64,000 nt of DNA from Desulfovibrio mangrovi (GTDB taxonomy: Bacteria; Desulfobacterota; Desulfovibrionia; Desulfovibrionales; Desulfovibrionaceae), in assembly GCF_026230175.1 (NCBI RefSeq), contig NZ_CP104208.1:2232001-2296000 (forward strand). The letters run 5' to 3'. Positions 16,709 through 18,825 of the stretch are shown piece by piece. How positions within the stretch are numbered: the first letter of the stretch is position 1; each line of letters starts with the position of its first letter. Under the pieces are notes generated by a model. The model saw only the letters and a program-made list of their open reading frames with translations, was not told the origin of the DNA and searched no databases. The position numbers and the translations under genes are program-made.

Positions 16709-17557
16709 ATGTCCAACAAATCGCTCACCCTTATCATCAGCCTGTTCATCGGCCTGGTGGTCGTGTTCCAGTCCGCATTTACCGTGCACCAGACCCAAAA
16801 GGCTCTGGTTCTGCAACTGGGTAAGCCTGTGGGCGGGGTGCGTGAACCCGGCCTGCATTTCAAGCTGCCCTTCGTGCAGAACGTCATCTACTTCGACGCC
16901 CGCGTGCTCGACTATGATGCACAGCCTGCCGAAGCCCTGACCAAGGACAAGAAGGCGTTGGTGCTGGACAACTATGCCCGCTGGCGCATTACCGACCCGC
17001 TGCGCTTCTACCAGACGGTGCGCACCATTCCCGGCGCACAGGCCCGACTGGATGACATCGTCTACTCGCAGTTGCGCGTATTCCTGGGCCGGTACACCCT
17101 GACCGAAGTTGTCTCATCCGAACGTAGCGCCATCATGGAGATGGTGACCAAGCGCTCGTCCGAGCTCATTGCCGACTACGGCATCGAGATCATCGACGTA
17201 CGCATCAAGCGCACCGACCTGCCGCCGGAAAACCAGCGCGCCATCTTCGGTCGCATGCGTGCGGAACGTGAACGTCAGGCCAAGCAGTACCGTTCAGAGG
17301 GTCAGGAAGAATCCACGACCATCAAGTCCACTGCAGACAAGGAGCAGGCTGTTATCCTCGCCGAGGCCAGACGGCAGGCTTCCATCATCCGCGGTGAAGG
17401 TGAAGCGCTCTCTACCAGAATCTTCGCGGAGGCACTAAGCAAGTCTCCCGAGTTCTACGAGTTCCAGCGTTCGCTGGAAGCGTACAAGAAAAGCCTTACA
17501 GGCAACACCCGCATCCTCCTTTCACCGGATGATCCGTTCCTGAAGTTCCTTAAGTAA
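16709..17557 (+). CDS. hflC: FtsH protease modulator HflC
   Basis: 282-residue SPFH-domain partner of HflK. One N-terminal signal anchor (LTLIISLFIGLVVVFQSAF) puts the SPFH domain in the periplasm. The family segments TQKALVLQLGKPVG, EPGLHFKLPFVQNV, IDVRIKRTDLPPEN and the repetitive RMRAERERQAKQYRSEG helix are present, and the end is the usual FLKFLK. GGAGGCGAG lies upstream of ATG 16709. It is translated directly behind hflK and followed by a strong terminator. Confidence 0.96.
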   Translation: MSNKSLTLIISLFIGLVVVFQSAFTVHQTQKALVLQLGKPVGGVREPGLHFKLPFVQNVIYFDARVLDYDAQPAEALTKDKKALVLDNYARWRITDPLRFYQTVRTIPGAQARLDDIVYSQLRVFLGRYTLTEVVSSERSAIMEMVTKRSSELIADYGIEIIDVRIKRTDLPPENQRAIFGRMRAERERQAKQYRSEGQEESTTIKSTADKEQAVILAEARRQASIIRGEGEALSTRIFAEALSKSPEFYEFQRSLEAYKKSLTGNTRILLSPDDPFLKFLK

Positions 17558-17582: not shown

Positions 17583-17622
17583 ACGCGGCAGAGAGCTTAT
17601 AGCATTCTGCCGCGTTTTTTTA
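17583..17622 (+). terminator. Intrinsic terminator of hflKC
   Basis: ACGCGGCAGA (17583-17592) pairs with TCTGCCGCGT (17606-17615) around a 13-base loop, followed by a run of T. Confidence 0.9.
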
Positions 17623-17778
17623 TTTCGGAGACGTAGAGAAACGATATGTGTAACATACGCAAAGCACAGTAAATTCTGAAAGAAATAGAGCCATACACAT
17701 TGGCATTTGATAACATCATAGTTTTTGTATATGGTAATGTGCGTTTGTGTGTGCACTAACAACACACTACAACGGTCG

Positions 17779-18043
17779 AAAAAAGAATTAGGATTCCGTC
17801 AACGGAATCCCTGACCATGAAGTCAGGTTGTTTTTACGAGGATGTTTCGTGCCCTGTTTGCATGCCTTCGAATGCAAGACGATCACAGGGACTGGCGGAG
17901 ATACCACTTCGAGGAAGGACGAAACGGAGTACAGGGTGCACCAGAATTGTTGGTGCATACGACTCACCGTCATGAGGCGTCCCCGTACTGAATCGAGCCG
18001 GTACTGTTGCATTTCGCGGGCGCAAGAACAGCACAACTTCATA
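17779..18043 (-). ncRNA. Candidate structured small RNA, about 265 nt
   Basis: This gene-free stretch has promoter, folded body and terminator on one strand. Stems, in window coordinates: GTTTCGT/ACGAAAC (17844-17850/17919-17925) encloses CCCTGT/ACAGGG (17852-17857/17885-17890), TTGCAT/ATGCAA (17858-17863/17872-17877) and CTTC/GAAG (17907-17917). AGTACAGGG/CCCCGTACT (17928-17936/17981-17989, one mismatch) encloses TGCACCA/TGGTGCA (17937-17943/17951-17957) and CTCA/TGAG. CTGTT/AACAG is at 18004-18031. CCTGAC/GTCAGG (17810-17827) precedes a hairpin GGATTCCG/CGGAATCC (17791-17810) followed on the minus strand by TAATTCTTTTTT. It resembles no RNA family I can name. An 84-codon minus frame covering it ends inside the terminator and does not look like a protein. 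Confidence 0.5.
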
Positions 18044-18049
18044 GCACAT

Positions 18050-18077
18050 CTTATATAAGAAAAAACATTCTGTCAAC
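18050..18077 (-). promoter_or_regulatory. Promoter for the candidate small RNA, overlapping a palindrome
   Basis: On the minus strand TTGACA (18077-18072), 16 bases, TATAAG (18055-18050). The -10 lies within a perfect 12-base palindrome TCTTATATAAGA (18049-18060), which could be an operator shared with the divergent S24 regulator. Confidence 0.5.
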
Positions 18078-18129
18078 AGGTCACTGCCTTTCCTTCCGTG
18101 GCATTGCCGTGACAGGCGGGAGAAATCAC

Positions 18130-18825
18130 GTGTCTACCTTTGATGAAGTCTTTGAGCGCATCAAGCTCTCCACCCACACCAGAACTCAGGTTGAGTTGGC
18201 AGAGGTACTGGACATCCGTCAGTCCAGCATTTCCGATGCCAAGCGCCGTAATTCCGTACCCTCCGACTGGTACATGAAGCTTTTCGAAAAGTTCGGTCTG
18301 AACCCCGACTGGTTGAAGAAGGGCGTCGGCCCCATGTACCTGCGCACAGAACAGGGCTATGAGCCTCTGGAAGGTCCCGCCGCAGGCCGCGTGTTCGAAG
18401 ATTCCGCCAAATTCGGCGATCCTGACGCCCGCAACGCCGTAGTCACAATCCACTCCATGCAGTGCGATACCGACGAAAACGGTCAGCGTGTACTGAAGGG
18501 CATCGGCAAGCTTTGCATTCCCCAGTCCTTTGCAGGCACCAATATTCAGGTGCTGCGTATGGAAACTTCCGGCATGGAGCCCCTTATCCACAAGGGTGCA
18601 TACGTAGGTCTGGACTCAAGCCAGAAGAACGTACTTTCCGGTGAAATTTACGGCGTATTCGTCCCCTACGAAGGCATTTCCCTGAAGCGCCTCTTCCTGG
18701 ACGCCGCCAACAACCGCTTCATCATGCGCAGCGAGAATCAGTCCCACCCCGAACAGTACCTGCCCGTGGAAAAGCGCTCCGAAGCCATTCTCGGCCGAGT
18801 GGCTTGGGTTTTACAAACTTTGTAA
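18130..18825 (+). CDS. CI-like transcriptional regulator (HTH plus S24 domain) lacking the catalytic serine
   Basis: About 231 residues from GTG 18130 (GGGAG seven bases upstream). Residues 1-70 form an HTH domain (TRTQVELAEVLDIRQSSISD) and the C-terminal 120 residues an S24/LexA-like domain. At the usual GDSMEP site the protein has ETSGMEPLI: the residue before Met is Gly, so the self-cleavage serine is missing. The lysine region SLKRLF is kept. The protein probably dimerises and binds DNA but does not cleave itself. It could be a domesticated prophage regulator or a housekeeping regulator. Its neighbours are hflC and, divergently, the candidate RNA. Confidence 0.85.
   Translation: MSTFDEVFERIKLSTHTRTQVELAEVLDIRQSSISDAKRRNSVPSDWYMKLFEKFGLNPDWLKKGVGPMYLRTEQGYEPLEGPAAGRVFEDSAKFGDPDARNAVVTIHSMQCDTDENGQRVLKGIGKLCIPQSFAGTNIQVLRMETSGMEPLIHKGAYVGLDSSQKNVLSGEIYGVFVPYEGISLKRLFLDAANNRFIMRSENQSHPEQYLPVEKRSEAILGRVAWVLQTL

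Follow-up and report, generated by a model that had tools for sequence, protein, structure and literature searches.

The region between hflC and an S24/CI-like regulator gene of Desulfovibrio mangrovi, within the 64,000-nucleotide stretch of DNA analysed here (the window), is probably transcribed from the plus strand as part of the regulator mRNA, in which it would form a long, structured 5' leader of about 200-390 nt, perhaps accompanied by an antisense transcript from the minus strand. This reading, a product of sequence comparison, draws on gene order, on conserved hairpins whose stems have changed, and on a plus-strand bias in two independent clades of relatives, all established by computation. 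The original prediction, made from the single sequence, had placed a structured RNA between these genes as a minus-strand unit with its own promoter, stems and terminator; that the region is folded, covaries among relatives and belongs to no Rfam family was borne out, but the strand and the gene model were not.

Upstream, the region is flanked by hflC (positions 16709-17557 of the window, plus strand), encoding the SPFH/Band 7 protease modulator HflC (NCBIfam TIGR01932, 255 bits; Pfam Band_7). Downstream lies the regulator gene (18130-18825, plus strand, with a GTG start at 18130), whose product combines a CI-repressor helix-turn-helix with a Peptidase S24 domain (Pfam PF07022 and PF00717). 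The two genes are separated by 572 bases and the folded region sits inside this gap. A hairpin 3' of hflC (17583-17615, plus strand; inverted repeat I2), in which CGCGGCAG...CTGCCGCG is invariant in alignment A1, is likely the hflC terminator and is kept across the window's clade. At the opposite end, the Shine-Dalgarno sequence of the regulator, GGCGGGAG (18115-18122, plus strand), is invariant in four species and is adjoined by a leader hairpin, GTCAC...GTGAC (18080-18113, plus strand), which carries UCCUUCC (18091-18097) in its loop. An 84-codon open reading frame on the minus strand was considered as a small protein and rejected; by eye, its frame is broken in the nearest relative, and the common ATGACGGTG/A start leads to dissimilar peptides.

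The 299-nt stretch first singled out folds at -95.4 kcal/mol vs. -79.3 +/- 5.0 kcal/mol (z -3.2) and is more stable than 200 of 200 dinucleotide shuffles. When essentially the same region was folded on both strands, the opposite strand gave -106.9 kcal/mol vs. -109.8 (z -3.4 vs. -3.7); stability thus leaves the strand undecided because the opposite strand folds about equally well. No family was found at the locus by a search of Rfam 15 at gathering cut-offs, and nothing convincing below them, in agreement with the earlier failure to fit 6S, tmRNA, RNase P or SRP RNA; the leader regions of 16 related loci were likewise without an Rfam match, and a literature search returned nothing on this locus. 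6S RNA is about 200 nt long and changes rapidly in sequence while its structure is kept, a likeness to the present region, but the single 6S match (RF00013) of this genome lies elsewhere, at 1930424-1930606 of the contig (87.1 bits), and none occurs here. The Burkholderia small RNA ncS025 (RF02869) resembles the two adjacent hairpins and T tail at 17827-17777 with 24.4 bits; its gathering score of 46 is far above this, and the E value of 0.04 refers to a search of 576 bases only.

A DNA homologue search of 288 genomes of the family returned one partial match, covering bases 1-75 of the query (minus strand), and relatives were therefore located by synteny of the flanking proteins; those found through a protein search belong to the Desulfovibrionaceae. 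In all 30 family loci examined, hflC stands next to the S24/CI-like regulator in the same orientation, with gaps of 156-1097 bases, the arrangement expected of a leader that precedes one and the same gene, on its strand, in different species. At the Desulfovibrio-type loci (L101-L116, group g18), only some 50 nt separate the end of hflC from the regulator, and hence the long leader is absent from them. The upstream regions of genus g37 aligned poorly; some 240 nt ahead of the regulator's start, its loci L083-L093 have a strongly conserved TTGACA followed by CGGGA...TCTCCCAAT...CGGGA, a block that resembles a promoter of the regulator itself overlapped by an operator. A cobalamin riboswitch was detected near the regulator of another genome (locus L005, 1227-1405, minus strand; 58.5 bits).

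The strand signal is clearest in two clades other than that of the window. With the six Halodesulfovibrio-type genomes (clade 2), the consensus fold of the alignment had a z of -9.4 on the plus strand and -4.4 on the minus strand, a strand difference (z -3.2) reached by 0 of 200 column shuffles. Their helices undergo changes on both sides, or G-U changes, when read on the plus strand, and the same helices read on the minus strand yield A-C mismatches. Invariant blocks GUC...GAG...UUGC and GCAA...UUC...GAC pair with each other and enclose four hairpins, after which a further hairpin stands beside the ribosome-binding site. The seven Nitratidesulfovibrio-type genomes gave z values of -5.3 (plus) and -1.9 (minus), with a difference of z -2.9 (2 of 200 shuffles), and part of their predicted structure extends into the start region of the regulator. 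A covariance model of the clade 2 structure (R1) found one copy per clade 2 genome, at this locus only, as expected of a cis element. The same model had no match in the window's clade; the clades may descend from one ancestral RNA or may have in common just the habit of a structured leader. Other elements were recorded near these leaders: a plus-strand sigma-54-like TGGCAC-N5-TTGTAT lies just upstream of the leader in 6 of the 7 Nitratidesulfovibrio-type genomes (loci L007-L012 and L016), with GTAACATGTTAC palindromes closer to hflC, and between hflC and the leader a minus-strand TTGTCA-N17-TATTCA-like element directed away from the leader is conserved in six genomes (L013-L019).

The window's own clade (clade 1) comprises four species: D. 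mangrovi, G150 (its nearest relative), G144 and G145. A whole-leader alignment of the four gave no consensus fold, the species being too diverged. Within this clade, 41-60% of four-fold degenerate sites differ and the gap has for the most part diverged to the same extent, for which reason the hairpins that were kept stand out. Conserved blocks comprise the ribosome-binding site, two TTGAYA-N15-TATAWG-like elements, TGACGGTGA and the hflC terminator. Hairpin G (17908-17923, plus strand) retains its loop, AGGAAGGA (GGAAGGA), while its stem is replaced in each relative, with UUCG/CGAA, CCAU/AUGG, UGUGCA/UGCACG and CCGCG/CGCGG serving in the respective species. Further downstream, a three-way junction (17928-17989, plus strand) is composed of helix E (17928-17936 with 17981-17989), hairpin A (17937-17957) and hairpin B (17959-17980); its stems covary in D. 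mangrovi, G150 and G144, the loop CCGUCA of hairpin B is invariant, and G145 is without helix E and hairpin A. The sequence ACTGTTGCAT (18003-18012, plus strand) recurs 3' of hairpin H-B in the clade 2 locus L013.

Read on the plus strand, the hand-matched helices of clade 1 comprise 74 Watson-Crick, 4 G-U, 1 A-C and 1 other cells, counts that lean towards structure because the helices were picked by eye before testing. A fairer measure is the shuffle test of hairpin B, which forms on the plus strand of G150, G144 and G145 (0, 3 and 0 of 300 shuffles) and does not form on their minus strand (25, 117 and 40). The D. mangrovi sequence itself counts against a plus-strand leader; its hairpin B forms on the minus strand and not on the plus, its helix E has an A-C on the plus strand where the minus has a G-U, and taken alone it leaves the strand undecided, with a lean of one pair to the minus strand. 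The plus-strand signal is shared by three of the four species of this clade, with the window itself leaning the opposite way. Covarying structure on the strand of the gene was in this manner found by alignment in two clades and by hand-matched hairpins in the window's own, and the compensatory changes that had been anticipated on the minus strand were not upheld: the relatives favour plus, and only the D. mangrovi sequence favours minus.

Several features of the minus strand had nevertheless been put forward as a transcription unit. Both hexamers of the proposed promoter, TTGACA-16-TATAAG, are present (18076-18071 and 18055-18050), but their spacing is 15, and a consensus promoter scan of the minus strand chooses TTGACA-17-TAAGAT instead. 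The nested arms also exist, with GTTTCGT (17844-17850) and ACGAAAC (17919-17925) enclosing CCCTGT/ACAGGG; their nesting is, however, not "hard to explain by chance", since a 7-bp helix around a 6-bp helix arises in 7.4% of shuffles, and the three relatives showed no such nested ACGAAAC/ACAGGG pair at the corresponding position. Similarly, the minus-strand hairpin with its T-rich tail was located (GGATTCCGTTGACGGAATCC followed by TAATTCTTTTTT, 17811-17790), but a sequence scan and comparison with relatives confined this terminator-like hairpin to D. mangrovi, none of the three nearest relatives showing a comparable minus-strand terminator in the vicinity. On the plus strand, a second terminator-like hairpin (CCTGACCATGAAGTCAGG-TTGTTTTT, 17810-17835) was by the same means also found in this species only.

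The 15-spaced hexamers form one half of an inverted pair. This genome has exactly two copies of TTGAYA-N15-TATAWG, as does that of G150; in each genome the two face inward as a pair across the gap, and the element is accordingly no general promoter layout here. The left arm (17707-17735, plus strand), conserved in four species, reads as TTGATA-N15-TATATG or, with the 17-base spacing of a fair promoter, as TTGATA-N17-TATGGT (or TATGAT), and may be a promoter and/or a long-range pairing arm. The right arm, TTGACA-N15-TATAAG (18050-18076, minus strand), is kept in four species, one of which has TCGACA, and is the partner of 17707-17733 in the inverted pair. The arms are complementary, with a plus-strand pairing probability of about 0.6 in D. 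mangrovi, 0.3 in G144, 0.26 in G145 (likewise 0.26 on the minus strand) and none in G150; they may be two convergent promoters or a long-range RNA helix. Elsewhere in the genus, TTGACA-N16-TATAAT recurs with similar spacers (e.g., TCGTTTGCTAGCTACG) in G142, G143 and G146-G149, apparently as a conserved strong promoter of some gene.

If the arms are promoters, two convergent transcripts could arise: the leader on the plus strand and, on the minus strand, an antisense RNA that would control the regulator by pairing with the leader. That 17707-17735 and 18050-18076 are both conserved and face each other, with terminator-like hairpins on both strands in this species, is consistent with this arrangement, which we nonetheless consider rather doubtful: the plus bias, the unconserved terminator and the restriction of the element to an inverted pair weigh against its minus-strand member, and the conserved blocks of clade 2 could just as well be the two sides of a single folded RNA. 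A minus-strand small RNA alone, running from about 18041 to 17779 and perhaps antisense to the regulator's leader, is unlikely. The conservation of its TTGACA-N15-TATAAG, its strong terminator in this species and the better fit of D. mangrovi's own three-way junction to the minus strand speak for it, against which stand the plus bias seen in two further clades and, within this one, in three species out of four, a terminator that is not conserved, and a 15-spaced element present in the genome only as this inverted pair. It is improbable that the structure belongs to a separate plus-strand small RNA ending ahead of the regulator; multi-branched and closed in clade 2, it could stand alone, but no conserved plus-strand terminator was found before the ribosome-binding site, and in clade 2 and the Nitratidesulfovibrio-type genomes the structure reaches that site. 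Finally, regulators of the S24/CI-like type frequently bind the control regions of their own genes and TTGAYA-N15-TATAWG is found only as a facing pair in D. mangrovi and G150, but it is very improbable that the elements are DNA-level operators with the hairpins as by-products of inverted repeats, given stems that change around constant loops, the opposite of a symmetric operator, and a strand asymmetry not expected of DNA sites.

Returning to a plus-strand leader of the regulator mRNA, transcription would run from around 17707-17740 into the regulator gene, and the leader would consist of a series of hairpins, including in this clade the three-way junction, with the last hairpin directly beside the ribosome-binding site of the regulator. 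Counting against this, the plus-strand terminator-like hairpin at 17810-17835 could halt a transcript from 17740 early. The leader would control translation of, or read-through into, the regulator in cis. As a guess with moderate sequence support, the GGAAGGA loop (17913-17919) may pair with the UCCUUCC loop (18091-18097) of the hairpin adjoining the ribosome-binding site, and this pairing could open or close that site. Complementarity between the GGAAGGA loop and the C-rich leader loop amounts to 7, 9, 6 and 9 pairs in D. mangrovi, G150, G144 and G145, with shuffle fractions of 0.05 (marginal), 0.004, 0.47 (weak) and 0.003, respectively; the joint fraction, 0 of 2000, treats the four species as independent, though they are related.

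Among known systems, the region is most readily likened to structured 5' leaders (riboswitches, ribosomal-protein leaders and RNA thermometers) in its location on the same strand directly upstream of a gene, its covarying hairpins and a last hairpin that adjoins the ribosome-binding site; unlike them, it has no Rfam match, and its sequence and fold shift fast even between species. Leader hairpins bound by CsrA have GGA in a hairpin loop, a freely changing stem and a position upstream of the ribosome-binding site, features that hairpin G appears to share; with just one such hairpin here, the likeness may serve as a lead only.

More broadly, it is possible, and proposed here tentatively, that at least three clades of the Desulfovibrionaceae carry a rapidly evolving family of structured leaders that detect some signal or bind a protein and thereby control the S24-domain regulator beside hflKC; in the window's clade, an antisense transcript would face the leader. 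The strand of such an RNA must be taken from relatives, given that wobble pairs indicate the other strand than the single sequence would suggest. If the leader reading is true, a concrete RNA and strand are offered for testing, and the region would represent an undescribed candidate cis-regulatory RNA of sulfate-reducing bacteria, tied to a regulator that is conserved with hflKC throughout the family.
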